Source of the DNA: Devosia sp. XK-2 | GTDB taxonomy: Bacteria; Pseudomonadota; Alphaproteobacteria; Rhizobiales; Devosiaceae | Reading direction: 5' to 3' | DNA length: 64,000 nt | NCBI RefSeq assembly: GCF_037113415.1 | Contig: NZ_CP146608.1 | Location: 1,322,501-1,386,500, forward strand | Part shown: positions 11,762-56,750 of the stretch, piece after piece | Position numbering within the stretch: position 1 is the first letter of the stretch | Layout of the letters: each line of letters begins with the position of its first letter | Made by a program: the position numbers and the translations under genes | The notes under the pieces: model-generated | Told to the model about the DNA's origin: nothing | The model's input: the letters and a program-made list of their open reading frames with translations, nothing else | The model's database searches: none

Positions 11762-11818
11762 GGCCGCCTCCCTACTGATTCAGTTCGGCAAGGCTTTACC
11801 ACAGCCGCTTCAAAAGAC

Positions 11819-38360: not shown

Positions 38361-40289
38361 ATGGCAGGTCAACATATCCACCTGGTCTTCAAGACGCATC
38401 TCGACATCGGCTTCACCGATCTGGCGGCCAAGGTCAGGCAACAATATCATCACCAGTTCATTCCGCAGGCTATTGCGACCGGCGAGCATTTCTTTGCCGA
38501 ACATCCCCGGAAGCCGCAATTCATCTGGACCACGGGCGCCTGGCTGATCTGGGATCATCTCAATTCGCAGGGAGCCGAACAGGTTCGTCGTCTCGAACAG
38601 GCCATCGAACGCGGTCTGATTACCTGGCACGCATTGCCTTTCACCACCCATACCGAATTGATGTCGCCAGCCACCTTCCGGGCCGGGCTGAGCTATGCGC
38701 AAGAGCTGGACCAGCGCTTTGGCCGCAAGACCATCGCCGCCAAGATGACCGACGTTCCCGGCCATACATTGGGCATGGTGCCCTTGCTGGCAGGGGCCGG
38801 AATCCGGTTTCTTCACTTGGGCGTTAACACCGCCAGCCCCGTGCCCGATGTGCCGCCGATCTTTCGCTGGCAGGCGCCAGGCGGCGAGGAAGTGGTGGTC
38901 ATGTATCAGGGCTCCTATGGCGCCACCGATTTTCCCGCAGGGGACGATATTGGCCTGAGCTTTGCGCACACCAACGACAATATCGGGCCGCAAAGTGTCG
39001 GCCAGACGGTCGAGGCCATTCGGCATCTAGGCCGCGAACATCCCGGCGCGACAATCGCCGCCTCGACTCTGGATGCCTTCGGCGGCGAAATGTGGGCACG
39101 CCGGGACAAGCTGCCCGTCGTCACGCAGGAAATTGGCGATAGCTGGATCCACGGTGCGGGCAGCGATCCCCACAAACTCGCCCGGTTGCGTGCCCTGCAG
39201 CGGCTCTATGACGGGTTCGACACCATTGACGAGAAGCGCCGCGCTTTTGGCCGGGGCCTCGCCATGGTTGCCGAACACACTTGGGGCGTCGATATCAAGA
39301 CCTATCTGCGCGACGAGACAGCCTGGGATCGCCCCGATTTCGAGGCCGCCCGCCGCGCGGACTATCGCTTTGCCTATACCGAGCAATCCTGGGCCGAGCA
39401 GCGCGCCTATCTCGACGATGCCCTGGCCAATCTGTCGCCGGCAGACCGCAACCTGGCGGCCCGGGACCTCAATGCGTTCGCCGTCCCCGCCGCGGCCGCA
39501 CCAATCCAGGGCACCCGGCTGCAAGATAACGGCTGGTCCGCGGACCTCGATCCTGCGACCGGCGATCTGCTGAACCTGACCGGCCCACACGGCCGCTCCG
39601 CCACCGGCCAAAACAATTCGCTGATCGGCTACCGCCACGAAAGCTACGATAGTGCCGAACTGCAAAAGCATCTCGACAGCTATCTCCTGCACCGCGCCGA
39701 ATGGGCCGTTCTGGATCACGACAAGCCCGGCCTCGCCCGGGCCGGGACCGCGCGCAGCACGACCTTCGCCCCTCGTCTCCTTGGCATCGCCGATGCCAAT
39801 CGCGCCATTCTCGCCATGCCGAACCCTGCCACGAGCGAACTCGGCGCCCCGCCACGCTGCGAGTATAGTCTCAAGGGCGCGGGCGACACGGCCGAACTGA
39901 CCCTGATCCTGCGCGACAAGCCAGCCAACCGCATGCCCGAGGCCGGTTTCCTGCATCTGTGCCCACAGGCTCTCGTCGCGACGCGGCTGAAAAAGCTGGG
40001 CCTCTGGCACGACAGCGCCAACCAGGTCCGCCGCGCCGGCGGACAACTCCAGGCAATTGAAGCGCTTACGCTTGAATGCGCAACCGCTTCATTACGCGTC
40101 GAGCCTCTCGACTGCGCGCTGATCGGGCCGGCCGCCGCGCCTTTCATGCCCTTCCAGCCCGACATGCCGGATTGGTCGTCCGGCGCCCGCTTCAATCTCT
40201 ACAACAATAAATGGGGCACCAATTTCCCCATGTGGTGGGAGGGCACCATCGCCTTCCGGTTTGTCCTGAGGCTGAGCGCCGCCGCCTGA
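38361..40289 (+). CDS. DUF5054 protein, GH38-like glycosidase fold
   Basis: The 642-residue protein begins IHLVFKTHLDIGFTDL, whose His-x-Asp is the zinc-binding motif of family 38 alpha-mannosidases. It continues with the segment AKMTDVPGHTLGMVPLLAGAG, where the Asp sits where GH38 enzymes have their nucleophile. These belong to the catalytic barrel (about residues 1-300); a helical and beta-rich C-terminal half follows. No signal peptide is visible, so it acts in the cytoplasm on the imported sugar. The activity is inferred from fold. Confidence 0.8.
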   Translation: MAGQHIHLVFKTHLDIGFTDLAAKVRQQYHHQFIPQAIATGEHFFAEHPRKPQFIWTTGAWLIWDHLNSQGAEQVRRLEQAIERGLITWHALPFTTHTELMSPATFRAGLSYAQELDQRFGRKTIAAKMTDVPGHTLGMVPLLAGAGIRFLHLGVNTASPVPDVPPIFRWQAPGGEEVVVMYQGSYGATDFPAGDDIGLSFAHTNDNIGPQSVGQTVEAIRHLGREHPGATIAASTLDAFGGEMWARRDKLPVVTQEIGDSWIHGAGSDPHKLARLRALQRLYDGFDTIDEKRRAFGRGLAMVAEHTWGVDIKTYLRDETAWDRPDFEAARRADYRFAYTEQSWAEQRAYLDDALANLSPADRNLAARDLNAFAVPAAAAPIQGTRLQDNGWSADLDPATGDLLNLTGPHGRSATGQNNSLIGYRHESYDSAELQKHLDSYLLHRAEWAVLDHDKPGLARAGTARSTTFAPRLLGIADANRAILAMPNPATSELGAPPRCEYSLKGAGDTAELTLILRDKPANRMPEAGFLHLCPQALVATRLKKLGLWHDSANQVRRAGGQLQAIEALTLECATASLRVEPLDCALIGPAAAPFMPFQPDMPDWSSGARFNLYNNKWGTNFPMWWEGTIAFRFVLRLSAAA

Positions 40290-40297: not shown

Positions 40298-42166
40298 CTA
40301 CCACACAACCTTATGCGTCTCCCCCGTCGCCACATTGACGAACCCTTCAGGCGCGAGCGGCGAGGGCGCCACCAGCACCCAGCGCCATGGCGCACAGGTC
40401 AGCGTGGCAAAGGCCAGGCGTTCGGGAAATCCGGGCCACCAGCGTGGCGAGAATGTGGGTTCATACATCCATTCGATGTTGGCTCCCGCCGCATAGAGCG
40501 CCGCCATTTCCGCATCCAGCTCGGCCGCCGGCCGGCAGGTCATTAATCCCCCGACCTCATAATGCACGCGCGCCAAAACGGCGCCGCCGCTGACCAGCGC
40601 CCAGCCGCCCTGCATGTCGGTGAGCGTATTGACCGCCAGCGCCATGGCCTCGTCGGACGATCCGACGACCCAGATATTGTGCTTGTCATGCCCCATCGAG
40701 CAGGCCAGGGCCGTGTCCGGCGTTCTGGGGCCCGTGCCCAGCCAGAACATTTTCGCAGTCTTACCCTCACCGGAAAACCGGTCGACAATCGCAAACTTCG
40801 TGATGTTGCGGTCCGCGTCGCGCTGCACCAGCCCGTTTTTGACCGGCAATGTCGTGGTGATGAATTCGTCGTGCCAGTGAAACGGCCGCAGCAGCGCTGC
40901 ATTGGCGGTGTCCTGGGCCCCCGCAGGCGCGGGGATAGCGAAATCCTCGGCGCGCAATTGTCGCTGGATATTGACCGTGTGGGTCGCCCAGTGCGGCCAG
41001 GCGATCTCGGGCACGGGCGCAATATAGCTCTGGCCCTCGGAGACCTGCCCACCATCGGCCCAGACCTCGGCAATAGAGAGCTTTTCGACTTCATCGAGCA
41101 ATACCAGATCGGCATAGCGGCCCGGCGCAATGGCACCGACCCACGGCGTCAGCCGCATGTGTCGTGCCGGATTGATGGTGACCATTTGCACGGCCACTTC
41201 CAGCGGCAACCCGGCCTCCATCGCCAGCCGGACATTATGGTCGGTCGCGCCCAGCTTGAGCGTGTCGGACGCGCTGCGATCATCGGTACAGAGCGCGAAA
41301 TTCGACCAGTCCTGCTGCCCGGCGGCGATAAGCCCTTCGAGCATCTCCTTGAGCGAATGGGGCCGCAGCTCCATGAACAGCCCCCGCCGCAACTTGTCTG
41401 CGACCTCGTCCGCCGTCCAGGCCTCATGGTCCGATGCCATGCCGGCAGCGGCGAAAGCGCTGATATCGTCGATAGCCCGCATGCCGGCGGCATGGCCCTC
41501 GACGACGCCCCGCTGCGCAAACGTGGCCTCGATCATGCCCCAGAGCCGATCATGGGAGGGGTTTCGAGGGTTCCACACCGCCGGCCAGTCCATGACTTCG
41601 TCAAGGCCAGGCACGGTCATATGGTCGCGCAAAAAACCGTTCTGTTCGTCAAAACCATAATGGCCGCCGCCCCATTCATAGGCGGTCGGCGGCACGGCCG
41701 AGCCGGGCAGGGGAAATATCTTGGCGGGCGAACCGGCCTTGCGGGCGGTCATCCAGAATTCGAGATTGCGCGGCCCATCCACATTGGAAAATTCATGGCT
41801 GGCCTCGCAGGTCCAGGTGCAGCCATGCGGCAGCACCAGCGCCGCTTCCCATTCCGGGGTCAGGTGGCTCGATTCGATATGCTTGTGTACCTCGCCAAAA
41901 CCGGGCACGGCAGCCAGCGACGACCGGTCGATCCGTTCGGCTGCCTCGCCCCGCCATGCCCCGCTCGGCCCTACCCAGGCAATCCGACGGCCAGAAATGA
42001 CGATCTCCTGATCCTCATGCCAGTTTCGGCCATAGACATCGAGCAGCCGGCCGATCCTGACTACCCGGTCTGCAGCGGCCTTGCCCAGCGCCACCAGTGC
42101 CAAATGTCTGCGGATGGCGACTTCATCGCGCGCATTGATGATGAGATCGTCTGGAAGACCGACCAT
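40298..42166 (-). CDS. Adenine deaminase-family amidohydrolase (copy 1)
   Basis: The 622-residue protein belongs to the adenine deaminase group (COG1001): N-terminal composite domain with IVISGRRIAWVGP, a metal-binding barrel with VPGFGEVHKHIESSHLTP (His-x-His), GVVEGHAAG, ASDHEAW and LCTDDRSASD, and a C-terminal adenine deaminase domain ending APWRWVLVAPSPLAPEGFV. Adenine to hypoxanthine is the known reaction. It is the last gene of the minus-strand nucleoside operon; its start overlaps the upstream stop (TGATG). A close paralogue lies at 53379, and the HKH motif is shared by both. Confidence 0.85.
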   Translation of the reverse strand: MVGLPDDLIINARDEVAIRRHLALVALGKAAADRVVRIGRLLDVYGRNWHEDQEIVISGRRIAWVGPSGAWRGEAAERIDRSSLAAVPGFGEVHKHIESSHLTPEWEAALVLPHGCTWTCEASHEFSNVDGPRNLEFWMTARKAGSPAKIFPLPGSAVPPTAYEWGGGHYGFDEQNGFLRDHMTVPGLDEVMDWPAVWNPRNPSHDRLWGMIEATFAQRGVVEGHAAGMRAIDDISAFAAAGMASDHEAWTADEVADKLRRGLFMELRPHSLKEMLEGLIAAGQQDWSNFALCTDDRSASDTLKLGATDHNVRLAMEAGLPLEVAVQMVTINPARHMRLTPWVGAIAPGRYADLVLLDEVEKLSIAEVWADGGQVSEGQSYIAPVPEIAWPHWATHTVNIQRQLRAEDFAIPAPAGAQDTANAALLRPFHWHDEFITTTLPVKNGLVQRDADRNITKFAIVDRFSGEGKTAKMFWLGTGPRTPDTALACSMGHDKHNIWVVGSSDEAMALAVNTLTDMQGGWALVSGGAVLARVHYEVGGLMTCRPAAELDAEMAALYAAGANIEWMYEPTFSPRWWPGFPERLAFATLTCAPWRWVLVAPSPLAPEGFVNVATGETHKVVW

Positions 42167-42750
42167 CAGCTAAGCTTTCCTGCATCCAGGGCCGCCATGA
42201 TCCAGTCGCGGTAGCGCTGGTCCTTGTCCGGAATTTCCGGCACGACCTTGCTCGCCTCTTCCATGAAATAGCGATAATCGCGTCCCTGCCGCTGGCCCGA
42301 CAGCGTGTGCATGTCCCGCGCGACATCGGGTATTTCAGGGCGCAGTTCGCCAAGCTGGGTCCCGCGCATGGCCCAATTGACCATGTCGTCGCTGGTGCGG
42401 TCCTTATCCGAGGCGCACAGCACGCGAATGGCATGCGCAGCAAATAGAAAGCGGTCACCCGACGGGCGGTCATGGCGCTTGTGCTGCTGGTAGAGCGTTT
42501 CCACCAGCACCGGTGCATCGGCGCGGCCGAGCCCGATATCTTCCACCGCGATCACGCATAGCCGCGACCACAGCTTCTCCTCCATCTCCGGGCTGGTCAG
42601 ATACATCTCCCAACCCAGAAGTAGGGCATTGTCGGTCATTGCCCTGCGGATGGATTTCTGCAAGGCGGAGATCACCTCGTCGGCGGGCAAGCCATGCTCG
42701 GTGGTCGTGCGCTGCCACGGATCGGCGGGTTGCTGAACCGAAATGCTCAT
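42166..42750 (-). CDS. Stand-alone homologue of the RarA/MgsA C-terminal domain
   Basis: The 194-residue protein matches the C-terminal oligomerisation and helical part of the AAA+ protein RarA/MgsA, with no ATPase domain. Residues 25-75 contain DEVISALQKSIRR, DNALLLGWEMY, and the block SRLCVIAVEDIGLG, following the RarA pattern ISALxKSxR, DxAL, IAxEDxG. The rest, up to WIMAALDAG, is helical and less alike. Its ATG overlaps the stop of the GATase-like gene and its stop overlaps the deaminase start (both TGATG), so it is a coupled member of a nucleoside operon. The function is unknown. Confidence 0.75.
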   Translation of the reverse strand: MSISVQQPADPWQRTTTEHGLPADEVISALQKSIRRAMTDNALLLGWEMYLTSPEMEEKLWSRLCVIAVEDIGLGRADAPVLVETLYQQHKRHDRPSGDRFLFAAHAIRVLCASDKDRTSDDMVNWAMRGTQLGELRPEIPDVARDMHTLSGQRQGRDYRYFMEEASKVVPEIPDKDQRYRDWIMAALDAGKLS

Positions 42751-43502
42751 CAGATATGCCCCGCTGCCCAATCGGCGATTTGTGTCCAGAGCCGATTATA
42801 GCCGGCCCATTCCACAAAAGGCGGCGGCGCCCAGTGTGGGCCGCAATCGGAGGCAAAGGCAACACTGCGGCCTTTGCCGAACTGGCCGGCAACCAGCAAT
42901 GGATCACCCCCCGCGGCTGCGACCAGTTCGCCACCGGGCTTCACTGCAAGCCGATTATAGCCAAGCAGGTCTGGCCAAGGTCCTTCAAGCCCCGCGACCA
43001 TTGGATGGCCGGCTGCGGTCACGCTGGGCGTCACGCCCTGCGGCGTCTCCACGCGGTCATCGGTCTGCAGCAGCGACACGGGCAGGGCCTCCTCCACGGC
43101 CGAGCCGGCATATTGCCCCTTGGCGTCGATGCCCTGGAAGGTCAGATAGCCGCCCACCATCACCAATCCGCCTCCATTGCCGACATAGTCCCGGATTGCG
43201 GCAAGCCGATTGGGCAGCACCTTGGATTTACTGAATGTGTCGGGGTGCAGCAGCAATGTGTTCGCGCCGATATCGGACAGCACCACGCAGTCAAATTCGG
43301 CCAGCGCCTCGGCCGTGAATGGAAAATCCCGCGCCGCGACATGAGCGGGTTGGTAAGTCACCTGCCATCCGCCCTTTTCCAGCGCGTCGCGCAGCCAGCG
43401 CACGCCTTCGGCATATTCAGTGGTCGTGAAACTGTCGAAACCCTTTTGGTGGATCGAATGGACGGTCCAGGACTCGCCGGCAATGAGAATTCTCTTGATC
43501 AT
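42750..43502 (-). CDS. Glutamine amidotransferase-like (GATase1-like, DUF1355) protein
   Basis: The 250-residue protein has a class I GATase-like flavodoxin fold: it starts KRILIAGESWTVHSIHQKGFD and contains FDCVVLSDIGANTLLLHP, LAAIRDYVGNGGGLVMVGGYLTFQG and FGKGRSVAFASDCGPHWAPP. A nucleophile Cys at the usual elbow is not evident; the elbow position reads MVGGY. Members of this family are often beside sugar or nucleoside transport genes and are uncharacterised. It is translationally coupled to both neighbours in the operon. Confidence 0.75.
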   Translation of the reverse strand: MIKRILIAGESWTVHSIHQKGFDSFTTTEYAEGVRWLRDALEKGGWQVTYQPAHVAARDFPFTAEALAEFDCVVLSDIGANTLLLHPDTFSKSKVLPNRLAAIRDYVGNGGGLVMVGGYLTFQGIDAKGQYAGSAVEEALPVSLLQTDDRVETPQGVTPSVTAAGHPMVAGLEGPWPDLLGYNRLAVKPGGELVAAAGGDPLLVAGQFGKGRSVAFASDCGPHWAPPPFVEWAGYNRLWTQIADWAAGHI

Positions 43503-44515
43503 TTTGTGGCCTTGATGAAAGGGACCGCCACGGAGTGACGGGGAATAAGCCGGACCGGCAATCGGGTCTCGGCGGGTGGAATTTGTGTGCTGTCCAGCAG
43601 CGCAAGCAGGTGCCGCACGGCCAGGCGACCCATGTCCTCGACCGGCTGGTGCACCGTGGTCAGCGGCGGATCGACGAGTTCTGCAAATGCCATGTCGTCA
43701 AAGCCGACCAGGCTGAGATCTCGGGGTATCGTTAGTCCTAGCGCGCGTACCGCCTTCATCACGCCAATGGCGATATAGTCCGAACAAGCCAGGATCGCGC
43801 TGGGGCGATCCGCGGCGTCGAGCAGCACATTGGCCGCGGTCTCGCCGAATTGGCTGGTATAGTCGCCCAGCATGACGCGGCCCGGCGGCACAGCGATGCC
43901 CGCTTCCTCCATGGCCCGGGCAAATCCTGCTAGCCGCTCGGTCACGCTCATCAGCCGGTTGGGGCCACCAATCAGGGCAATATCCTTGTGTCCCGCCGCC
44001 AGCAGATGACGGGTCGCCTGATAGGCCCCCTCGACATTCTCGACAAAAATGCGCGGCACGCTCACGCCCGCAATGTCTTCGTCGAGCACCACCACATTGT
44101 CCCGGCCCTCGAGCAGGCCAGCCAGCGTCCCATCGTCCACACGATTGGTCATGATGATGAGCCCATCCACATGGCCGTCGCTCATGCGGCGTATGGCATC
44201 CGCTTCGTTTCCGGCGCCGCTGCTTGTTGAAGAGATATAAACCGCATAGCCGTGCTCATGCGCCTCAAGTTCCACGGCGGCTGCCAGCTCGGCAAAGAAC
44301 GGGTTGGCAATATCAGGCGTCACCAGGCTGATTGCCTCTGCCTTCCCCTTTGAAAGCCGGCGCGCCAGCACATTGGGGCGGTAGTCGAGCTTGGCTATGG
44401 CCGCGTCGATTCGGTCCCGCGTCGCCTGCGGCAGCTCGATCCGATTGTTGAGATAGCGCGAAACCGCCGTGGGCGAGACCCCGGCCTCGGCAGCAACTTC
44501 GCTCAATGTCGCCAT
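43499..44515 (-). CDS. LacI-family repressor of the nucleoside locus
   Basis: The 338-residue protein has a classic LacI HTH and hinge (ATLSEVAAEAGVSPTAVSRYLN, then YRPNVLARRLSKGKAEAI, about residues 2-60) and a ribose-binding-protein-like effector domain ending LSLVGFDDMAFAEL and RLIPRHSV. It is embedded in the cytidine deaminase operon, 9 bases after the creatininase stop. A perfect 14-base palindrome with a CG centre before both divergent operons is a good candidate for its operator, with a nucleoside or nucleobase as the likely inducer. Confidence 0.92.
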   Translation of the reverse strand: MATLSEVAAEAGVSPTAVSRYLNNRIELPQATRDRIDAAIAKLDYRPNVLARRLSKGKAEAISLVTPDIANPFFAELAAAVELEAHEHGYAVYISSTSSGAGNEADAIRRMSDGHVDGLIIMTNRVDDGTLAGLLEGRDNVVVLDEDIAGVSVPRIFVENVEGAYQATRHLLAAGHKDIALIGGPNRLMSVTERLAGFARAMEEAGIAVPPGRVMLGDYTSQFGETAANVLLDAADRPSAILACSDYIAIGVMKAVRALGLTIPRDLSLVGFDDMAFAELVDPPLTTVHQPVEDMGRLAVRHLLALLDSTQIPPAETRLPVRLIPRHSVAVPFIKATK

Positions 44516-44524: not shown

Positions 44525-45262
44525 CTAGATCCCGTGCCGAACGCGCCAGGCGCCAAGGACGTCCAGGCTTTCGCGCACGATTCCGGCCACCAGTTTTTCG
44601 CCCTTTTCTGCCGTCGCGGGGCGGGGGTCGCCAAAGACACCTGATGGGTTGAAATCGCCCAATTGCATTGGCTCGGACCCGAAAGTGGGTGGAAAAGACG
44701 GATAGGATGCCTCCGCGCGCGTCATGTCGACGCCTTCGGGCGCCACCGACAACATGATCGCGGTTTCCACCTCGTCAGCATGGTAGAAATGCGGCGCCGC
44801 CGGCTTGCTGTCGCAGACCTCGCCGGCCAGTCTTTCAAGCCCCGGATAGTCGAGATGGCAAACCGGCAGGCCGGCCTCGGTGAGGGTGCGGGCGGCAAGC
44901 AGCATCGGCTCGCGATTGCCGAAATGGCCGTTGACCAGAACCAGCCCCTTGACCCCCATGCGCAGGACCTCGTGTCCGATGTCTTCGATCAGTGCCTGCA
45001 GCGTGCGCGGCGAGATCGAAATCGTTCCGGGAAAGCTGCGCGCAGTCCAGGCGTCGCCATAGGCGATGGGAGGCAACAGCAGGGCCTCGATCGCCTGTGC
45101 AATCCGCCGCGCCACGCCTTGGGACATGTCCGTATCCGTGGTTAGTGGCAGATGCGCGCCATGTTGCTCGCAGGCGCCAATGGCAAGAACCGCCAAAGTG
45201 CCTTCGCGCACCTTCGCGGCCACATCCGGCCAGGATGCACGGGCGAGATCGACCGCGCTCAT
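44525..45262 (-). CDS. Creatininase-family amidohydrolase
   Basis: The 245-residue protein has the creatininase fold signatures: LAIGACEQHGAHLPLTTDTDM with metal-binding Glu/His/Asp (about residues 28-48), PPIAYGDAW, GFPGTISIS-like FPGTISISPRTL, LVNGHFGNREPML with the metal His, and HADEVETAIML with the Glu. Relatives cleave cyclic amides such as creatinine or dihydro-flavin intermediates, so ring opening of a modified base is possible. I use the ATG at 45262, which overlaps the cytidine deaminase stop (TGATG); a GTG three codons upstream is less likely. Confidence 0.85.
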   Translation of the reverse strand: MSAVDLARASWPDVAAKVREGTLAVLAIGACEQHGAHLPLTTDTDMSQGVARRIAQAIEALLLPPIAYGDAWTARSFPGTISISPRTLQALIEDIGHEVLRMGVKGLVLVNGHFGNREPMLLAARTLTEAGLPVCHLDYPGLERLAGEVCDSKPAAPHFYHADEVETAIMLSVAPEGVDMTRAEASYPSFPPTFGSEPMQLGDFNPSGVFGDPRPATAEKGEKLVAGIVRESLDVLGAWRVRHGI

Positions 45263-46215
45263 ATCGACCACCCATATATCCGTAGCGCGGCGGATGGCGC
45301 GATTGCGCCCAGCAGTTCTTGGGTCGAGCGCGAATAGTCCACATCGCCTCCGGACACGGTGCCCAGATCGACCGAAACAATGTCATGGGCCGATTGCCCA
45401 TGCGCCAACAGATTGACCATTGCCATCTGCAGCGGTTGGATCGTTGGATTGAACGCCACGCTTTCTATCGCAAAGCCTGCATATTGGGCGCCGTCTCGCA
45501 TCGTTAGCACCACGGCGGCGGGACATTTGCTATAGGGCGAGTGACTGAGTGCACCAGCGCGCAAAAGCGGGGCAGGGACCTTATCCTGATCGCCGGCAGG
45601 CGTCAGATTGGGCCATAATGCACGCCCCGGCACCGCACCACGCTCGCCCAAATAGGCCGGATCGAACGGCCAGGGATAAAGCTGTGCCATGGTCAGTGTG
45701 TGGCCGAGCGGGTCGATCAGTTCCAACCCATCGCTGGCGGCATATTCGGCAAGACATTGCCGGCAATGGGCGCAGGGATGGGCCTCGCCAATGGCAATGA
45801 CCGAGATATTGGTGCCCCGGCTCATCGCCCGCGTGAACACAAAGCCCTCGCCATGCAGCGTGTAGCCCAAATGGGTTCCGGGAAATTCCACATTGCCGCC
45901 CAGAATCAGATTGCCCGTCTCTGCTTCCAGCCCGACTGCACCGACATGGAAATCGGAGATCGCGGGAGCGGCATATTGCTGTGCAACATCGAGCAGCAAA
46001 AGCATCAGCTCTCGTATCGAGCTCAGCCCAAAGCGAACGATCAGCTCTTCCGCAAGGGCATTTGGAAGGACGCCGCCATCGTTCTCCGCCGCGTCGAAGT
46101 GCGCCTTTTGCAGGTAGTCCTGAATGGCAGCCTGCACCGACTGCCTGGCATGCTCGCCCAGCGCGGCAAGCCGTTCGGGAATGGCAGGGTCAGCAGAAAA
46201 GGGGTTGCTGCTCAT
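45259..46215 (-). CDS. cdd: Cytidine deaminase, long form
   Basis: Cytidine deaminase converts (deoxy)cytidine to (deoxy)uridine. The 318-residue length matches the dimeric E. coli type with a catalytic half and an inactive C-terminal half. The zinc site is PCAHCRQC (Cys148, Cys151). The proton-shuttle motif normally HAE reads HGE (His121-Gly-Glu123), with spacing to the Cys pair as in E. coli. The NVEFPG segment and SPYSKCPAAVVL are also typical. It is the first gene of the minus-strand operon, divergent from the amidohydrolase/transport operon. Confidence 0.88.
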   Translation of the reverse strand: MSSNPFSADPAIPERLAALGEHARQSVQAAIQDYLQKAHFDAAENDGGVLPNALAEELIVRFGLSSIRELMLLLLDVAQQYAAPAISDFHVGAVGLEAETGNLILGGNVEFPGTHLGYTLHGEGFVFTRAMSRGTNISVIAIGEAHPCAHCRQCLAEYAASDGLELIDPLGHTLTMAQLYPWPFDPAYLGERGAVPGRALWPNLTPAGDQDKVPAPLLRAGALSHSPYSKCPAAVVLTMRDGAQYAGFAIESVAFNPTIQPLQMAMVNLLAHGQSAHDIVSVDLGTVSGGDVDYSRSTQELLGAIAPSAALRIYGWSI

Positions 46216-46350: not shown

Positions 46351-47694
46351 ATGGGTTCTGTTCTGCTCCGCGACGCCACCGTTCTGACGGTAGATGCTCA
46401 AAACACCGTCTATGCGCCTGGCTGGGTTGCCATTTCCGATCAGCGGATCACAGGTCTCGGCCCAATGCAGGACTGCCCGCCGGACGACGGATTTGGCGAG
46501 GTTTTTCGTCTGCCGGGTCGGCTCGTTATGCCTGGCCTTGTCAATGCCCACACGCATTCGGCCATGATTCTGTTTCGTGGTCGCTCCGAGGGGCAAAGCC
46601 TGCTCACCATGGAAGGCTGGTACAACTCCATCCGCGAGCCCGAACTGTCGCTGATCGCCAGCGATATCGGTCCGTCCGTGGCCCTGTCCTGCGCCGAAAT
46701 GGCGCTTTCGGGCACGACGACCTTCTGCGATCAGTATTTCTTCGCCGACGAAATCGCCGAAGCGGTGGGGCAGGCGGGTCTGCGAGCCGTTATCGCCTAT
46801 GGTATTGTGCAGCTCGGCGACAAAGAGCGCGGCGAACAGGAGCTCAAAAGCGCCTCGGCCTTCATCGAGCGTCAACGCTCGGCCGATGGCCGCATCATTC
46901 CCTGGTTTGGCCCGCATGCCCCCTATGTCGACAATTCCGAGGACCTGATCCGGGCTGAAGTCGAACTGGCCGTCAAATATGGTTGCGGCATGCATCTGCA
47001 TATGGCCGCCGGTCCCGAGGACAATGAAGAGACCATGGCCCGCTATGGCCTTACCGCGACCCAGGCCCTGGATCGGGATGGCTTCTTTGCTGGTCGCGTT
47101 CACGCGGCCCATTGTCTTGACCTGTCCGAACAAGACATCGCCATCTTCGCCGCTGCCCCTGCGGCGTCGGTGGCCTATTGCGCCACGGCCGGCCTGCGCT
47201 CGGGCCGCGAGGGCATGTGCCCGGCCGTGGCGCTGCGCAATGCCGGCGTGGTGGTGGCCCTTGGCACCGACAATGTTGCCGCCAACAACGCCTATGACAT
47301 GATTGCCGAAATGCGGGTCGCGGGCCTGGTGGCTTCACATCGCGAGGGTGTCGCCCAGCCCATCTCCAGTCGCGACCTGATACGCATGGCCACCATTGAT
47401 GGCGCTCGCGCGCTCGGCCTCGATCACGAGATCGGCTCGCTCGAACCGGGTAAGGCCGCCGACATAATCGCCGTTCATCTCGGGGGTCCAGGATATTCCG
47501 AAACACCCGACATCGAGACCCTGCTGGTCTATTCCGGCAGCGGTCGGGACGTCGAACACGTCTGGGTGGCTGGTGAACACCTCGTCGCAGACCGGCAGTT
47601 GACCCGTCGTCCCTTCTCCGAAATCAGAAATGACTATTCCATGACTTACAAAGACTTCTGGGCGCGGGTTGAATCAGCGCGCGAGGTTGCCTGA
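46351..47694 (+). CDS. Amidohydrolase of the ATZ/TRZ (MTA/SAH deaminase-like) family
   Basis: The 447-residue amidohydrolase has the metal motif LVNAHTHSAM (about residues 64-73), HLHMAAGPEDNEE, HAAHCLDLSEQD and ALGTDNVAANN with the catalytic Asp, in the usual order for aminopurine or aminotriazine deaminases. The start is ATG 46351 behind AGG. It heads the plus-strand operon and ends two bases before the nucleoside hydrolase. Deamination of a purine derivative such as 8-oxoguanine or a methylthioadenosine-like compound is likely, but the substrate is not fixed by sequence. Confidence 0.85.
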   Translation: MGSVLLRDATVLTVDAQNTVYAPGWVAISDQRITGLGPMQDCPPDDGFGEVFRLPGRLVMPGLVNAHTHSAMILFRGRSEGQSLLTMEGWYNSIREPELSLIASDIGPSVALSCAEMALSGTTTFCDQYFFADEIAEAVGQAGLRAVIAYGIVQLGDKERGEQELKSASAFIERQRSADGRIIPWFGPHAPYVDNSEDLIRAEVELAVKYGCGMHLHMAAGPEDNEETMARYGLTATQALDRDGFFAGRVHAAHCLDLSEQDIAIFAAAPAASVAYCATAGLRSGREGMCPAVALRNAGVVVALGTDNVAANNAYDMIAEMRVAGLVASHREGVAQPISSRDLIRMATIDGARALGLDHEIGSLEPGKAADIIAVHLGGPGYSETPDIETLLVYSGSGRDVEHVWVAGEHLVADRQLTRRPFSEIRNDYSMTYKDFWARVESAREVA

Positions 47695-47696: not shown

Positions 47697-48650
47697 ATGG
47701 TGCGCAAGCTCCTCCTCGATAGCGACGGCGGCGTGGACGACGCGCAGGCCCTGCTCATGCTCATCGCCGCCGGGCGCACGCCGGACGCAATCACCAGCGT
47801 TTTCGGCAATGTCGGCCTGCAAGCGGCCACCCGAAACCTGCTCACCGTACTCACCGTCGCCGGCAAACCCGACGTGCCCGTGCATATGGGCGCTGATCGG
47901 CCCCTGATACAGCCGGTGATTGACGCTAAATACATTCACGGAGAAGACGGGCTGGGCGGCGCGCCCAGGCCTGATAGTATCCCGGAACCCGCCAGTGCGG
48001 ACGCGGTCGGCTTGCTGATCGAGACCTTTCAGGCTGCAATTGATGCAGGGGACAAGGTCGATATCCTGATGATCGGACCATTGACCAACCTGGCCCTGGC
48101 ACTGCGACTGCGGCCTGGCATTGCCGCGGGAATTGGCCAACTCTCCATTATGGGCGGCACTGTCTATGGGCGCGGCAACACCACCCCGGCGGCCGAATTC
48201 AACATCTATGCCGATCCCGAAGCCGCGGCCATCGTCTTTCAGGCGCCCATCGATATCCTTGTCGCGCCCTGGGAGCCTTGTGTAACCCACAATATGACTG
48301 GCGCCGATGTCGATGCACTTTTCGCAGACATCTCCGAATCCATCGAGAAGCAATTTTCCCAGACCCTGGCTGCGCATGCCCGGCAGACTATTGCCGGCTA
48401 TGGCGGTGGCGACCATTTCCGCTTCGTCGATCCACTCGCTGCGGCGGCGGTAATCGAACCGGACATCGTCACAAAGTCCACACGCGCCTCGGTCGACGTC
48501 GCGCTCGCCCCGGGTATCACGCGCGGCATGACTGTCATCGATCCCTCAGGCCGCCTTGGTACGCCGATGGTGACGCTGATCGAAGAGGCTAAAATCGAGC
48601 GTCTGGTCGCGCTCTATCGCGCCTCAATCGCCTACCGGCCCGCACCTTAA
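47697..48650 (+). CDS. Nucleoside hydrolase
   Basis: The 317-residue protein belongs to the inosine-uridine nucleoside hydrolase family, which cleaves nucleosides to base and ribose. The calcium-binding motif DSDGGVDDA (residues 8-16, pattern DxDxxxDD) is intact, followed by NVGLQAATRNLLTVL, VHMGADRPLI, ILMIGPLTNLALALRL and MGGTVYGRGNTTPAAEFNIYADPEAA with a metal-site Asp. It fits between uptake of nucleosides and deamination of the released base by the neighbouring deaminases. Confidence 0.95.
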   Translation: MVRKLLLDSDGGVDDAQALLMLIAAGRTPDAITSVFGNVGLQAATRNLLTVLTVAGKPDVPVHMGADRPLIQPVIDAKYIHGEDGLGGAPRPDSIPEPASADAVGLLIETFQAAIDAGDKVDILMIGPLTNLALALRLRPGIAAGIGQLSIMGGTVYGRGNTTPAAEFNIYADPEAAAIVFQAPIDILVAPWEPCVTHNMTGADVDALFADISESIEKQFSQTLAAHARQTIAGYGGGDHFRFVDPLAAAAVIEPDIVTKSTRASVDVALAPGITRGMTVIDPSGRLGTPMVTLIEEAKIERLVALYRASIAYRPAP

Positions 48651-48680: not shown

Positions 48681-49730
48681 ATGTCCAAGACCAAGTTTAC
48701 CCGCCGCGCCTTTGCCGGCCTCGCCGCCGCCGGGCTTCTTGCCTCGGTGTCGGCAAGTGCTGTCATCGCGCAGGAATACACCGCCGAAAATCCATTGACC
48801 GTGGCTTTGGTCGTCCACGGTAACCTGGGTGACAAGAGCTTCTTCGACAGCGCCGCGGCCGGACTGGACAAGGCCGAAGCCGAATTGCCGGTCGACGTGA
48901 CCATCATTGAGGCCGGTCTCGATCGTGGCCGCTGGGAGCCCGCGCTGGCAGATGCGGTTGATCAGGGCTTCGATGTGGTCATCGCCGGCACCTGGGAAAT
49001 GAACGGCTTCATGCAGGCGCTTTCGCCTGAATATCCGGACACCAAATTCATCCTGTTCGATGACGCCCCGGATTTTTCTGGTGGCGCCTTCCCCAATATC
49101 CTGGCAATCAATTACCGCGTCTCCACAGCGGGTTATCTGGCTGGCTACGCCGCAGCCAAGATCAGCGAAACCGGCAAACTGGGTGAAATTCTCGGCGTCG
49201 AAGGCACCACTGTGGTCGAATTCGCTCTCGGTTTCGAACAGGGTGCCAAGGCCGCCAATCCTGACGTCGAGGTGACGCGCGCTGTCGCGGGGTCCTTTAC
49301 CGACCCTGCCAAGGGCAAGGAACTGGCACTGGCCCAGTTTGCGCAGGGCGTTGACATCGTCTTCCCCATTGCTGGCGGTACTGGCATCGGCGCGCTACAG
49401 GCGGCCCGTGATGAGGGCAAGCTGGCTGTTGGCGTTGACAGCGATCAGGCCGAAATCTTCGCACCGACCGATCCGGCCCAGGCCGAAGTGATCTTTACGT
49501 CCGTTGAAAAGAAGGTCGGGGAGTCGCTCTATACCGCATTGGCCCAGACCATTGATGGCACCGCTCCCTATGGCACCAATCTGATCCTCGGCCTGGCCGA
49601 TGGCGCCGTGGGCATCGCCAAGAACAGCTATTACGAAGCTGCCGTGCCCGAGGACGTTCGCGCCGAGGTCGACGCCGAGGAGGCCAAGATCATCTCGGGC
49701 GAGATCGCGGTCGACACCGGCATGCAATAA
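48681..49730 (+). CDS. BMP-family nucleoside-binding lipoprotein-like substrate-binding protein
   Basis: The 349-residue periplasmic protein belongs to the Bmp/PnrA family, whose studied members bind purine nucleosides. The N-terminus has a twin-arginine-like motif TRRAFAGL followed by a hydrophobic core and a cleavage site near ASAVIA (about residue 28-30). No lipobox Cys is seen. The mature part has the family pattern LVVHGNLGDKSFFDSAAAGLDKAE, VIAGTWEMNGFMQ, INYRVSTAGYLAGYAAAKI and VFPIAGGTGIGALQAARDEG. It starts the transporter set of the operon, behind a CAGGAG site. Confidence 0.92.
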   Translation: MSKTKFTRRAFAGLAAAGLLASVSASAVIAQEYTAENPLTVALVVHGNLGDKSFFDSAAAGLDKAEAELPVDVTIIEAGLDRGRWEPALADAVDQGFDVVIAGTWEMNGFMQALSPEYPDTKFILFDDAPDFSGGAFPNILAINYRVSTAGYLAGYAAAKISETGKLGEILGVEGTTVVEFALGFEQGAKAANPDVEVTRAVAGSFTDPAKGKELALAQFAQGVDIVFPIAGGTGIGALQAARDEGKLAVGVDSDQAEIFAPTDPAQAEVIFTSVEKKVGESLYTALAQTIDGTAPYGTNLILGLADGAVGIAKNSYYEAAVPEDVRAEVDAEEAKIISGEIAVDTGMQ

Positions 49731-49796: not shown

Positions 49797-51341
49797 ATGG
49801 CGCCTTTGCTTGAAGCCATATCGATCGGCAAGACCTATCCAGGCGGAACCGTCGCCAATGACGGGGTCGACCTCAGCGTTGCGCCCGGCGAGGTCCACGC
49901 CGTGGTCGGCGAAAATGGCGCCGGAAAATCGACATTGATGAAAATCCTCTTCGGCATTGAGCAACCCGATACCGGCGAGTTGCGCCTCGAGGGCCAACCA
50001 ATTGCCTTTGCCAATCCCAGGGACGCCATCAATCACGGCATCGGCATGGTATTTCAGCATTTCTCGCTGGTGCCATCCTTTTCCGTCTACGAAAACGTCG
50101 TGCTCGGTTCCGAACCGCGCCGCGGCGTCAAGTTCGACCGCGCCAAGGCGATCGAAGAGGTGCGCGCGCTCTCGGAAAAATTCCGCCTGACCGTCGATCC
50201 CCTCCCGCCCGTCGGCCAACTCCCTGTCGGCCAGCAGCAGCGGGTGGAGATTCTCAAGGCGCTTTACCGGGACGCGCGCATCCTCATCCTGGATGAACCC
50301 ACGGCGGTCCTCGCGCCGCAGGAAGTGGAAGAGTTGTTCATTGCGATCCGCGCGCTGGTGGCGCAGGGCCGCACCGTCATTTTTATCGCGCACAAACTTC
50401 CCGAAGTGCTGGAAATTTCGGATCGCATCACAATCATGCGCGGCGGCAAAACGGTTGGTTCAGTCAAGACCAGTGAGGTGACCGAGGACAGCCTCGCCAC
50501 CATGATGGTTGGCCGCGAGATAGCACTGCGCGTCGATCGGGCCCGGACAAGCGGCGAAGTTGTCTGCGAAATCAAGGCATTGCGTATCGCCAATGACACC
50601 GGCGGTACCATCGCTGAGGACCTTAACCTCAAGGTCCGCTCTGGCGAAATTCTCGGCCTGGTTGGCGTCGAGGGCAACGGCCAGGCCGAATTGCTCGAGG
50701 CCGTCGCGGGGCTCCGCGATATCGCCGATGGCGCGGTTTATCTTGAAGGCACCAGCCTTAAGCCGTTGAGCGTGCTGCAACGCCGCGAGTTGGGCCTGGC
50801 CAGCATTCCGGAGGATCGCCTGGCGCGGGGCCTGGCGCCCGGTTCGACCATCGCCGAAAACATGGTCGCCACACGCCTCACCGATAAACGCTTCGTGCGA
50901 AATGGCCTGCTCGACCTCAAGGCTATCAAGGCCAATGCGCAATCGCTTATCGAGCGCTTTTCTATTCGCGCCGGCGGGCCGGGCTTTGCCGCTGGCACGC
51001 TCTCGGGCGGCAACATGCAGAAGGTCGTGGTGGCTCGCGAACTGGCCGAACAGCCCAAATTGCTGTTGGTCAATCAGCCGACGCGCGGTGTCGATCTGGG
51101 TGCCACCCAATTTATCTGGAAATCCCTGACTCAGGCGCGCGACGGTGGTGCTGCCATCCTTCTCAGTTCCGCGGACCTGTCCGAATTGCTGGCGCTCAGC
51201 GACCGCCTTGTCATCTTCTATCGCGGTAAGATCGTCGCTGCGTTCCACAATAGTGACGACCTCACACCTGAAACGCTGGGCACCTACATGCTTGGCCTCG
51301 ATACCCAGGAACCCGAAACCATGCGGGCGGCCCTCCAATGA
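49797..51341 (+). CDS. Nucleoside ABC transporter ATP-binding protein (two domains)
   Basis: The 514-residue protein has two ABC ATPase domains, as in the RbsA/NupA/BmpA class. The first (about residues 5-240) has a Walker A GENGAGKST, signature LPVGQQQRVEILKAL and Walker B ILILDEPTAVL. The second (about 255-500) has a degenerate Walker A (GVEGNGQAE), the signature LSGGNMQKVVVAREL and LLLVNQPTRGVDLGA. The degenerate second site is typical. It overlaps the first permease gene by four bases (ATGA). Confidence 0.95.
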   Translation: MAPLLEAISIGKTYPGGTVANDGVDLSVAPGEVHAVVGENGAGKSTLMKILFGIEQPDTGELRLEGQPIAFANPRDAINHGIGMVFQHFSLVPSFSVYENVVLGSEPRRGVKFDRAKAIEEVRALSEKFRLTVDPLPPVGQLPVGQQQRVEILKALYRDARILILDEPTAVLAPQEVEELFIAIRALVAQGRTVIFIAHKLPEVLEISDRITIMRGGKTVGSVKTSEVTEDSLATMMVGREIALRVDRARTSGEVVCEIKALRIANDTGGTIAEDLNLKVRSGEILGLVGVEGNGQAELLEAVAGLRDIADGAVYLEGTSLKPLSVLQRRELGLASIPEDRLARGLAPGSTIAENMVATRLTDKRFVRNGLLDLKAIKANAQSLIERFSIRAGGPGFAAGTLSGGNMQKVVVARELAEQPKLLLVNQPTRGVDLGATQFIWKSLTQARDGGAAILLSSADLSELLALSDRLVIFYRGKIVAAFHNSDDLTPETLGTYMLGLDTQEPETMRAALQ

Positions 51342-52435
51342 GTTCTCTTTCCTCCCACCGGCGCGACGTCTTCCTGCGTGAACTGGGGCGTGCCGGCACG
51401 GCCCTGGCGATCGCGCTGATCATTGCGCTCGTCGTTATTTTTGCCACTTCGAGCGATCCGGCAAAGGCGTTTACGACGCTTTTGACCGCGCCCCTCTCGT
51501 CCAACCGCACCATGGGTCTGTGGATCGACGATGTCGCCAAGCTGATCTTGACGGGTCTGGCTTTCAGCCTCGTCTTTCAGGCCCGCCAATTTTCCATGGG
51601 CGTTCAGGGGCAGGTCTACATGGGCGGCCTTTTCGCTGCCCTGGTCGCCATGTCGCCCATGGGCGCGACGCCGCTGGCCATTCCACTGGGCATGTTGGCT
51701 GGCATGATCGCGGGTTCCGTCTACGGCCTCATTCCCGGCTATGCCAAGGCCCGTTTCGGGGCGAGCGAGATCGTTTCCTCGCTTATGCTCAATTACATCG
51801 CCATTCTGGTGGTAAATTATCTGATCCGCGCCCACCTTGCCCCGCCGGGAACGGGCCAGTTGATGACGGCAAAATTTCCCGACACAGCGATCTTCCCGGC
51901 CATTCTGCCCGGCACCCGCTTCGACCTTGGTATTGTTATTGCGGTCGTTGCGACTTTCGCAGTCTGGTTCCTGCTCTACCGCACCAATTGGGGCCTCAAG
52001 CTGCGATTGGTCGGACATAACCCGAAATTCGCTGAATATGCCGGTATTCGCGCCAAATTTATCATGGTGTCAGCCATGACCGTGGCAGGGGCGATCGGCG
52101 GTCTGCTCGGCTCCGTTTTCGTGCAGGGCAGGGCCTTCGGCAATCTGGCGCAAAACTTTGACGGCAATCTCGCCTTTGAAGGCATCCTGATCGCCATTGT
52201 CGCCCGGTCCCGTCCTCTGGCCGTGCCATTCGTGGCTTTGGCCTACGGATATCTGCGCCAAGGCGCCCAGCTCATGGGCATCCGCACGGACGTGCCGACA
52301 GAAATGATCTCGGTGGTTCAGGCCATTATCATTCTGCTGGTCGCCTCCTCCTTCACCCTGCCGGGTAAGACCCTTTTTACCCGCCTGATGGGACGCCGGC
52401 CTGCGCCCGTCACCGCGTCGGAGGCCACGCCATGA
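51338..52435 (+). CDS. Nucleoside ABC transporter permease 1
   Basis: The 365-residue inner-membrane permease belongs to the BPD_transp_2 family. It has eight to nine hydrophobic segments, and FSMGVQGQVYMGGLFAALVA (about residues 87-106), GASEIVSSLMLNYIA and VGHNPKFAEYAGI, which are characteristic of the YufP/NupB permeases. A short charged N-terminus precedes the first helix. It overlaps the ATPase gene and the second permease gene (ATGA each). Confidence 0.94.
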   Translation: MSSLSSHRRDVFLRELGRAGTALAIALIIALVVIFATSSDPAKAFTTLLTAPLSSNRTMGLWIDDVAKLILTGLAFSLVFQARQFSMGVQGQVYMGGLFAALVAMSPMGATPLAIPLGMLAGMIAGSVYGLIPGYAKARFGASEIVSSLMLNYIAILVVNYLIRAHLAPPGTGQLMTAKFPDTAIFPAILPGTRFDLGIVIAVVATFAVWFLLYRTNWGLKLRLVGHNPKFAEYAGIRAKFIMVSAMTVAGAIGGLLGSVFVQGRAFGNLAQNFDGNLAFEGILIAIVARSRPLAVPFVALAYGYLRQGAQLMGIRTDVPTEMISVVQAIIILLVASSFTLPGKTLFTRLMGRRPAPVTASEATP

Positions 52436-53382
52436 TGGAACTTCTGATGACGGTCTTGTCGGCGACGTTCTTTGTGACCGTGATCCGCACCACGACACCC
52501 TTGCTTTTCGCCACTCTGGGCGGGCTGATTTCCGACCTGTCCGGCGCGCTCAATGTTGCGCTTGAAGGTATGATGCTGATCGCCTGCCTGACCGCCGTGA
52601 TCGTCTCCGTCTATGCGCCCTGGTATGTGGCCGTGCTGTCCGGCGTTTGTGCCGGCGCCATGCTCGGCGCGCTGATGGCCCTGTTCCATTTGCGCTTTAA
52701 AGCCGACATCATCCTGGTCGGCTTCGCGGTTAATATCCTTGCAACCGGTGGTACCGTTTTTGCCCTGTCTCAGGCGACGGGTGGAGACAAAGGTACTTCA
52801 ATCAATCTTCCCTCCAAGGCTATCCCGGCCGTCGATCTGTCCTTCCTATCAGCCATTCCGGGCATCGGCCCGCTGCTCAAAAGCCTGCTGTCGGGCCATT
52901 CGCTGCTCTCCTGGCTGGCTTTGCTGATGGTCTTCGGGGTCTGGTATTTCCTCTATCGCACGCCCTATGGCCTTTGGCTGCGTGGCGTCGGCGAATATCC
53001 GGCTGCGCCCGAGGCGGCCGGCGTGCCGGTCAACACGGTCCGCGCCTGGGGATTGGTTGCATCCGGCGCACTTGCCGGCCTGGGCGGAGCCCAGCTCGCA
53101 ATGTTCAACTATATCGGCTTTACCAGGGACATGACGGCTGGCCGCGGCTTTATCGCCCTGGGCGCCGTACTGCTAGGTGCTCGCCACCCGGTCGGCGCAA
53201 TGTTGGCGGCGCTGTTGTTCGGCATCTTCGAAGCGCTGGCAATCGTCATGCCCAATCTCTTCAACTGGATACCGGGCGAGATCATCCAGACCATTCCGTT
53301 CGTGGTTACGGTCCTGGCGCTGGTTCTGTTCAGCTACCGTGCACAGCGGGCCCGGCAACTGCGTACGCTGAGCAAGATATGA
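52432..53382 (+). CDS. Nucleoside ABC transporter permease 2
   Basis: The 316-residue permease is the partner of the preceding one (YufQ/NupC type). It has RTTTPLLFATLGGLISDLSGALNVALEGMMLIA, split here at about residues 20-50, the family GLW-type motif YGLWLRGVGEYPAAPEAAGVPV and the GRGFIALGAVLLGARHPVGAM stretch near residues 225-245. About eight helices are visible. It overlaps the deaminase start by four bases. Confidence 0.94.
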   Translation: MMELLMTVLSATFFVTVIRTTTPLLFATLGGLISDLSGALNVALEGMMLIACLTAVIVSVYAPWYVAVLSGVCAGAMLGALMALFHLRFKADIILVGFAVNILATGGTVFALSQATGGDKGTSINLPSKAIPAVDLSFLSAIPGIGPLLKSLLSGHSLLSWLALLMVFGVWYFLYRTPYGLWLRGVGEYPAAPEAAGVPVNTVRAWGLVASGALAGLGGAQLAMFNYIGFTRDMTAGRGFIALGAVLLGARHPVGAMLAALLFGIFEALAIVMPNLFNWIPGEIIQTIPFVVTVLALVLFSYRAQRARQLRTLSKI

Positions 53383-55241
53383 GCCTGCCCGACGACCTGG
53401 TCCTCTCATCAGCCGATGAGGTCAAAATCCGCCAGCACCTGCTGCTGGTTTCCTTGGGCAAAAGGCCGGCCGATCTCGCCATCGAGGTTGGTCGCCTCCT
53501 GGCCGTGCATGCCAATGAGTGGCTGGAAGGGCAGGAGATTGTCATTGCGGGTCGGCGCATCGCCTATATCGGCCCCATCGGCTCCTATCGCGGCGATGTC
53601 AAAAAGCGCGTTTCTTACCCGGACCTCTCGGCCGTCCCAGGCTTTGGTGAAGTCCACAAACACATTGAATCCACCCATCTGACGCCCGAATTCGAGGCGG
53701 AACTGGTCTTGCCGCGGGGCAATACCTGGACCTGCGAGGCCAGCCACGAATTCGCCAATGTGAACGGCCCCAAGAACATTGAATTCTGGGAAAAGGCGCG
53801 GCGCGCCGGTTCTCCGCTCAAGATCTTTATTCAGCCCGGCTCGGCCGTGCCGCCCAGCGCATGGGAACAATCGGGTGGCTACTATGGTTACGGCGAGCAA
53901 AAGCAGTTTCTCGCTGAAGCCCTCTCCGTCACCAGCCTCGATGAAGTCATGGACTGGCCCTCGGTCTGGGACCCGTCAAACCCCGGCTATGCCCGTATGT
54001 GGGGGATGATCGGGGCCACCTTCGAAATGCGCGGTGTTGTGGAAGGCCATGGTTCGGGCCTCACCGACCCGCACGATATTTCTGCGTTTGCGGCAGCAGG
54101 CCTTTCTTCAGACCACGAGGTCTGGGCGCTGGATGAGGCATGGGATCGGCTCATGCGTGGCCTGTTCACCGAACTGCGGCCATTCTCCTACGACGCCATC
54201 ATTCCCGGTCTGATCGAGAGGGGGCTGAAGGATTGGTCGAATATCGCCTTTACCACCGACGACCGCAGCGCCACCGACACACTCAAGGATGGCGCAGCCG
54301 ATCACAATGTCCGCCATGCCATTCATTATGGTCTTGCGCCCGAAATCGCCATCCAATGTGCCACCATCAACCCTGCGCGCCATATGCGCATCGATCAATG
54401 GGTCGGTTCGATCACGCCAGGCCGCTACGCCGATATCGTGCTGCTGCGCGATGTCGAAGCGGTCGATATCGCTCATGTTTATGCCGATGGCCAATTGGTG
54501 TCCGAGAACAAGAGCTATATCGGACCGGATATGCGCATCAACTGGCCCGATTGGGCCAGTGGCACCATTAATATCGGTCGCGAATTGACGGCCGTCGACT
54601 TCGCGATCAAGGCCGACCCCGGCCGTGAGACCATGCAGGCCGCCATTCTGCGACCCTTCCATTGGAACGAGGATTTCCTGGTCGAGCAATTGCCAGTCAT
54701 TGACGGCGAAGTTCAGCGCGCTCCGGAAAGGCTCATAACCAAGTGGTCCATGATTGATCGCTATCGCGGCGATGGCGCGGTGGCATCCATGTTCTGGATC
54801 GGTGTCGGTCCCTCCGACCCCGAGACCGCGCTGTGCTGTTCGGTCGCCCACGACAGCCACAACATCTGGTGCATTGGCTCGTCCGATGCGGCCATGGCCA
54901 AGGCGGTCAACCGCCTTGCCGAAATCGATGGAGGCTGGGTACTGGTGCATCGAGGCGAGGTGGTCGCCGAAGTGCGGCTCGAAATTGCCGGGCTCATGAC
55001 CGCGCGCCCCGCCGACGCCTTCGATGAGGACATGCAGGCCTTTCTCTCCCGCGCGGCTGAGGTGGACTGGGTCTACGCACCCGCGGCCATGAATCGATGG
55101 AAACCCGGCTTTCCTGAATTCCTGATCTTTGCCACGCTCACATGTGCGCCTTGGCGTTGGGTGCTTGTCGCCCCTTCCGCGCTTTGCCCGGAGGGTTTTG
55201 TGAATGTACAAACCGGCGAGACGCACAGGATCGTCTGGTAG
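53379..55241 (+). CDS. Adenine deaminase-family amidohydrolase (copy 2)
   Basis: The 620-residue protein is a full-length paralogue of the enzyme at 40298. Both share SAVPGFGEVHKHIES, GNTWTCEASHEF-type sequence, MDWP.VW, TTDDRSA-type metal-site sequence, HNVR.A and the C-terminal TLTCAPWRWVLVAPS. It is the last gene of the BMP-transporter operon and should act on adenine or a related aminopurine released by the nucleoside hydrolase. The ATG overlaps the permease stop. Differences between the copies are spread through the protein, suggesting an old duplication or separate acquisition, not a recent copy. Confidence 0.88.
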   Translation: MSLPDDLVLSSADEVKIRQHLLLVSLGKRPADLAIEVGRLLAVHANEWLEGQEIVIAGRRIAYIGPIGSYRGDVKKRVSYPDLSAVPGFGEVHKHIESTHLTPEFEAELVLPRGNTWTCEASHEFANVNGPKNIEFWEKARRAGSPLKIFIQPGSAVPPSAWEQSGGYYGYGEQKQFLAEALSVTSLDEVMDWPSVWDPSNPGYARMWGMIGATFEMRGVVEGHGSGLTDPHDISAFAAAGLSSDHEVWALDEAWDRLMRGLFTELRPFSYDAIIPGLIERGLKDWSNIAFTTDDRSATDTLKDGAADHNVRHAIHYGLAPEIAIQCATINPARHMRIDQWVGSITPGRYADIVLLRDVEAVDIAHVYADGQLVSENKSYIGPDMRINWPDWASGTINIGRELTAVDFAIKADPGRETMQAAILRPFHWNEDFLVEQLPVIDGEVQRAPERLITKWSMIDRYRGDGAVASMFWIGVGPSDPETALCCSVAHDSHNIWCIGSSDAAMAKAVNRLAEIDGGWVLVHRGEVVAEVRLEIAGLMTARPADAFDEDMQAFLSRAAEVDWVYAPAAMNRWKPGFPEFLIFATLTCAPWRWVLVAPSALCPEGFVNVQTGETHRIVW

Positions 55242-55376: not shown

Positions 55377-55403
55377 TTAAGGTGAGTAAAGTAGTCACCT
55401 TAA
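55377..55403 (+). promoter_or_regulatory. Iron-responsive RirA/IRO-type box before the imelysin operon
   Basis: TTAAGGTGA-N9-TCACCTTAA is a perfect nine-base inverted repeat. Its core TGA-N9-TCA equals the rhizobial iron-responsive operator bound by RirA. It lies 23 bases before the imelysin ATG, placed to repress the operon when iron is plentiful. Confidence 0.75.
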
Positions 55404-55426
55404 TCAATGTGAACTGGAGGATTTCA

Positions 55427-56692: not shown

Positions 56693-56708
56693 GCGCCCTG
56701 TGTTCTGG

Positions 56709-56732
56709 CGACCCGGGCCACGGCCCGGGTCG
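56709..56732. repeat. GC-rich palindrome between the imelysin and DHO genes
   Basis: CGACCCGGGCC, a two-base loop and GGCCCGGGTCG form a perfect 11-base-pair stem. No T tract follows. It belongs to the family of short GACCCGGG-type intergenic palindromes common in alphaproteobacteria and may stabilise the first gene's mRNA. Confidence 0.7.
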
Positions 56733-56750
56733 GTTGGGGTTTGATGTTCT

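Follow-up and report, generated by a model that had tools for sequence, protein, structure and literature searches.

What does the C-terminal domain of a replication ATPase do when it is encoded on its own, among genes for the handling of nucleosides? The question is raised by a gene of Devosia sp. XK-2 on the minus strand of the window (the whole 64,000-nucleotide stretch of DNA analysed here), which runs from an ATG at 42750 to a TGA ending at 42166 and encodes a protein of 194 residues. We use RarAC as a working name for this free RarA/MgsA C-terminal-domain protein. RarA is a DNA-replication ATPase, and the domain is normally attached to its end. RarAC is that domain as a separate small protein without the ATPase. 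In Pseudomonadota, Bacillota, Chloroflexota and Fusobacteriota, members of the free family are repeatedly linked to genes for taking up or cleaving nucleosides and other glycosides, and RarAC is probably a metabolic protein.

A RarA C-terminal domain without its ATPase

In a Pfam scan, RarAC matched MgsA_C (PF12002) with an E-value of 3e-7 and a score of 30.9 bits, above the curated cut-off of 27, and no AAA+ domain was seen, MgsA_C being the sole family listed at E<=1 for the 194 residues. The three motifs that an earlier note on this DNA had read from the letters alone (ISALxKSxR, DxAL and IAxEDxG) are all present in the translation, as ISALQKSIR at residues 27-35, DNAL at 40-43 and IAVEDIG at 67-73; the plus-strand frame over 42166-42750 contains internal stops and is not an intact open reading frame. 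The AlphaFold model has a predicted local distance difference test (pLDDT) score of 96, and all 18 PDB chains that Foldseek matched to it at E<=0.001 are RarA/MgsA, with no unrelated helical family scoring better; VIA likewise matches C-terminal fragments of RarA. Profile and fold thus agree with the note's assignment of a RarA C-terminal domain lacking the AAA+ ATPase. RarAC is not the genome's own RarA, since the full-length protein (a 442-residue open frame, 227 bits) is encoded at another locus.

A homologue search with RarAC returned 1474 clusters at E<=1e-3, the best 120 of which are all 192-194 residues long, and a search with the Cetobacterium protein returned 2192, of whose best 120 all except three longer ones (117) are of 199-205 residues. 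When 42 free proteins were placed in a tree with six RarA C-domains as outgroup, the free set formed one clade with 100/100 support; 20 of the 45 inner branches are starred, and L059, L050, L049 and L086 sit on long branches. RarAC is under purifying selection: against four relatives, nonsynonymous divergence (dN) is 0.10-0.20 and synonymous divergence (dS) 1.10-1.44, with dN/dS of 0.09-0.15.

The free family is patchy yet broad, occurring in Devosia, Clostridium, Enterococcus, Cetobacterium and Chloroflexota. At E<=1e-20, members were matched in 18 of 347 genomes of the order to which Devosia belongs, among them four of ten genomes listed for the genus (that of the window included), and in 13 of 206 genomes of the family to which the Clostridium hydrogeniformans genome belongs. 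At E<=1e-15, draws from the window's own phylum, Chloroflexota and Bacillota gave 2/398, 2/251 and 2/398, each count including the centre genome of the draw. Among the 18 plasmid records matched, those of Cetobacterium, Enterococcus and Subdoligranulum are 46-50% identical, that of Bradyrhizobium 32% and that of Halobaculum 30%. Free proteins without the ATPase (P0004, P0007, P0009 and others) carry the database names 'AAA family ATPase' or 'replication-associated recombination protein RarA', and such names hide this uncharacterised family. At one locus (G1281; L036/L053), a single in-frame stop interrupts the RarAC gene and the adjoining deaminase lies in several open pieces (L053, ~9400-12500), which suggests decay or a sequencing error.

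PADLOC gave no match to RarAC at E<=0.1, and a role in defence was rejected on this basis. We also rejected a viral origin after considering the ten phage records that match RarAC: the annotation of seven reads RarA, clamp loader or ATPase, two Enterococcus phage records without annotation match weakly (E 4e-3), and one unannotated 4.8-kb 'Bacteriophage sp.' record is 44.6% identical over 87% of the query. The domain also occurs in nine longer proteins of 259-436 residues, six of which were inspected. P0241, P0244, P0245 and P0247 were not counted as fusions, as their garbled stretches resemble, in our judgement, frameshift or chimeric joins. P0185 and P0189 (348 residues) are clean-looking fusions of a globin with RarAC: at its N-terminal end P0189 matches haemoglobin 1vhb (E 1.3e-11), whereas P0185 matches Pfam Globin there at the cut-off of the model. 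In three small clostridial genomes of 1.5-1.7 Mb, the gene immediately upstream of RarAC resembles those of single-domain bacterial haemoglobins (L075:2856-3284, L076:8052-8489 and L077:10556-10990).

Linkage to nucleoside and glycoside genes

Genes within 9.5 kb of RarAC were counted at 41 loci and compared, using the same references, with 46 controls consisting of forty displaced 20-kb stretches from 20 of the test genomes and six RarA loci of 12-14 kb, each counted over its whole length. A nucleoside-acting gene lies near RarAC at 19 of the 41 loci and in none of the 46 controls, the first figure being biased upward because the references PNP, NDT, ARH, NMT1, PTS (phosphotransferase system) and GH4 were picked from the test loci. 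An importer is present at 29/41 loci versus 2/46 controls, and an importer or a nucleoside-acting gene at 32/41 loci. Because several references had been drawn from the test loci, we also counted with window-derived references alone (IUNH, TRZ, AdeD, CytDeam and Bmp) at the 35 loci that lack both GATase1_like and creatininase. Seven of these 35 were positive versus 0/46 controls (p 0.002, to be used as a guide only, since many loci are close kin, such as L038-L040 from one genus and L005 and L049 from one genome, and p values overstate their independence); one of the seven (L086) is weak, at 84 bits and ~6 kb distant. The nucleoside-gene linkage on which the earlier note turned therefore recurs in relatives.

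Devosia-type relatives retain the gene cluster of the window with losses: L003 lacks the GATase1_like gene, and in L007, L037 and L041 the adenine-deaminase-like gene lies apart from RarAC. The two genes adjoin in L003 and L004, as in the window. This deaminase is present at 6/41 loci, all with the Devosia-type cluster, and at none of the tallied loci beyond it. In other Hyphomicrobiales, RarAC is accompanied by an RpiR/SIS regulator, an NMT1 ATP-binding cassette (ABC) importer and a member of the nucleoside-2-deoxyribosyltransferase family (L038-L040, L046-L048 and, weakly, L042). The clostridial locus L051 comprises LacI, RarAC, a DeoD-type purine nucleoside phosphorylase and a Bmp importer, and L085 comprises RarAC, GH4, PTS EIIC and a DeoD-type phosphorylase. 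Throughout Bacillota and Cetobacterium, RarAC is found with PTS EIIC, often with RpiR and sometimes with GH4; the one EIIC tested (L056) belongs to the lactose/cellobiose family by NCBIfam. The Cetobacterium locus additionally has a TRZ hydrolase, and the Enterococcus loci L057 and L061 consist of a regulator, RarAC and PTS EIIC. Among Chloroflexota, a TRZ hydrolase is present in L008 and an ADP-ribosylglycohydrolase in L052.

On the minus strand of the window, the order of genes is a cytidine-deaminase-like protein (45259..46215; PF08211, E 4.3e-20; NCBIfam PRK09027, 152.6 versus a cut-off of 153), a creatininase-family amidohydrolase (44525..45271; PF02633, E 2.8e-63), a LacI-family regulator (43499..44515; LacI, E 2.1e-14, and Peripla_BP_3, E 6.8e-44), a GATase1_like protein (42750..43502; PF07090, E 2.3e-102; relatives with solved structures are 3soz (STM1381) and 2gk3), RarAC (42166..42750) and an adenine-deaminase-like amidohydrolase of 622 residues (40298..42166; Adenine_deam_C, E 9.9e-30). 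Both junctions of RarAC, with the GATase1_like gene upstream and the deaminase gene downstream, read TGATG on the minus strand, confirming the coupling on both sides that the earlier note had described, and Pfam assigns both neighbours. The plus strand then encodes a TRZ/ATZ-type amidohydrolase of the nucleobase/nucleoside deaminase family (46351..47694; PF01979, E 7.9e-53; best NCBIfam model PRK09045, 293 bits with a cut-off of 540), an inosine-uridine-preferring nucleoside hydrolase family protein (47697..48650; PF01156, E 2.2e-76) and an ABC importer. The importer has a BmpA/PnrA-type substrate-binding protein (48681..49730; PF02608, E 3e-58), an ATPase with two ABC_tran stretches (49797..51341; PF00005, E 1.3e-50), a permease (51338..52435; PF02653, E 5.9e-39) and a probable second permease (52432..53382), a 316-residue open frame named from position and length only, on the basis that L001 has a 316-residue frame at the same place with a weak match to permease 1. 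A second adenine-deaminase-like protein follows (53379..55241, plus strand; start probably at residue 136 of a 755-residue frame); it is 60% identical to the first, and the two bracket the cluster at both ends. The first adenine-deaminase-like protein (274.9 versus 472.5 bits for NCBIfam 'ade'), the TRZ protein and the cytidine-deaminase-like protein all fall under their NCBIfam cut-offs, which hints that the substrate of the cluster may be an unusual nucleoside. A DUF5054 protein (38361-40289) adjoins the cluster; downstream lies an imelysin / di-haem oxidoreductase group (55382-59344).

Conserved residues and possible function

An alignment of 61 sequences has 20 invariant columns (S28, Q31, K32, R35, R36, E48, W61, R63, E70, G73, A107, R109, K116, R118, D142, H148, T149, G152, G156 and R157). 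Eight of these (S28, K32, R35, R63, E70, G73, K116 and G156) are kept in at least five of six RarA proteins, the RarA alignment being uncertain past about residue 138, and the free family differs from RarA at 42 of 57 conserved positions. The closest of the six is a Clostridium RarA (L087; 52 bits versus 24-34), in which positions 148, 156 and 157 are His, Gly and Arg. Since only eight of the invariant columns are kept in RarA, the free family appears to add polar residues, with basic ones in excess, to the RarA set, with which an anionic ligand would fit.

We propose that RarAC descends from a RarA C-terminal domain that would have split off from the replication ATPase long ago, and that it now acts in operons for the uptake and breakdown of nucleosides and other glycosides. 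On balance, we favour a catabolic role in which RarAC would bind, and probably transform, a small anionic ligand, putatively a nucleoside, sugar phosphate or nucleotide, a view that draws on the invariant basic and acidic residues and His148, about half of which are not found in RarA. An enzyme acting on the imported compound is suggested by L057 and L061, where RarAC would be the sole product that is neither regulator nor transporter. More tentatively, the RarA C-domain fold might hold a small-molecule site, and the free family could be a new all-helical enzyme that processes nucleosides and other glycosides at their sugar or sugar-phosphate moiety. If this were true, the residues common to RarAC and RarA (S28, K32, R35, R63, E70, D71 and K116) would be the remnant of a ligand site or nucleic-acid-phosphate site in RarA.

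Beyond the bias and kinship in the counts, several observations weigh against this proposal. RarAC shows no catalytic motif of any known enzyme. Nine of the 41 loci have none of the metabolic neighbours searched for, namely L005, L009, L043, L044 (Kaistia/Bosea group), L045, L049, L058, L059 and L084. PTS EIIC occurs at 14 loci, 12 of them without searched nucleoside genes nearby, so that a sugar glycoside may be the shared substrate. Some neighbours are foreign to a nucleoside scheme, including GDPD and glycerol-3-phosphate dehydrogenase (L008), YjbR and MgtE (L045), a glycogen-debranching-type protein (L049), DsbB (L006), EamA, GDPD and a TPR protein (L084) and a phosphodiesterase (L086). 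Finally, replication-type genes occur in the stretches around two divergent relatives on plasmids: that of a Bradyrhizobium plasmid (L059, 8989-9543) has a TIR-domain gene nearby and a gene for a Pol III beta subunit at a distance of ~6 kb, and that of a Halobaculum plasmid (L060, 8884-9669) lies among small plasmid genes with ParB, ERCC4, topoisomerase-zinc-finger and dCTP deaminase.

The main rival, which we regard as possible though rather unlikely, is that RarAC has no catalytic role and serves as a ligand sensor or regulatory subunit, binding a nucleoside or phosphosugar and controlling the operon's importer, a regulator or one of its enzymes. RarAC often has a LacI or RpiR/SIS regulator and an importer close by, a helical domain from an oligomeric ATPase would require no active site, and in some Clostridiaceae the fusions to a globin and the globin genes beside RarAC recall sensor architectures. 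However, the importers vary (two ABC types, PTS or none), leaving no single conserved protein to be regulated, and twenty invariant columns in 61 sequences seem beyond the need of a simple sensor.

Both roles suggested in the earlier note fare worse. That RarAC is an oligomerisation scaffold for the adjoining adenine-deaminase-like enzyme would accord with the TGATG coupling and with the adjoining genes of L003 and L004, but the deaminase is not a constant partner, being separate in three of the six loci that have it and absent from those outside the Devosia-type cluster, and together with the loci devoid of searched metabolic neighbours this makes such a role improbable. We give similarly little credence to the idea that RarAC, by joining RarA oligomers or competing with them, ties replication to the nucleotide pool. 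It is favoured by the kinship of RarAC with the RarA C-domain, by the full-length RarA that the genome also encodes and by the replication-type genes near L059 and L060, noted without a systematic search for replication genes; the patchy presence within the order, the deep separation from RarA in the tree, the many differing conserved positions and the catabolic-gene linkage speak against it. That RarAC is a functionless copy of rarA, truncated or in decay, could be argued from the missing AAA+ part and the internal stop of the G1281 relative, but is scarcely credible given a large free family across several phyla, the low dN/dS and the intact RarA elsewhere. What stands of the earlier note is thus the identity of the domain and its linkage to nucleoside genes, and not the roles it offered.

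Comparison with RarA and other helical proteins

The domain itself is known already: MgsA_C is named in a table of hypothetical proteins in PMC6016940. No description of a free clade linked to catabolic genes turned up in the open-access literature searched, outside which most subscription papers lie. In PMC8735627, RarA is described as forming tetramers and acting at DNA gaps or ends, and the molecular function of its family is called obscure.

Clamp-loader collar domains (RFC, T4 and the E. coli clamp loader), which rank under the RarA group among the VIA matches, are 4-12% identical to RarAC, a range common among helical proteins, and were rejected as kin. The NCBIfam model PRK13341 (AAA family ATPase models, ~730 residues) matches residues 25-161 weakly (E 3e-5), scoring 22 versus a cut-off of 668 bits, and describes a much longer protein. 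Within the free family, the 27-bit MgsA_C cut-off is passed by RarAC, L049 and L086 and not by P0185, P0189 or L059, and Pfam MgsA_C gave no match for the divergent relatives L050 and L060.

RarAC resembles the C-terminal domain of RarA/MgsA/WRNIP1 (PDB 3pvs, 2r9g, 8g28, 3ctd and 3bge) in its fold over residues ~11-138 and shares with the RarA C-domain ISAxxKSxR, R63, EDxG and K116. The last ~55 residues lie outside the VIA alignments to RarA, and several full-length Foldseek alignments have a root-mean-square deviation of ~10 Å; the free family has its own N-terminal DPWxRxxT and C-terminal DxHTxxGxxxGR motifs. Unlike RarA/MgsA/WRNIP1, RarAC lacks the AAA+ ATPase and is linked to catabolic genes and, as a small tractable protein with a probable metabolic role, it offers a way to learn what this fold binds and so to put forward a hypothesis, open to testing, on the C-domain of RarA.
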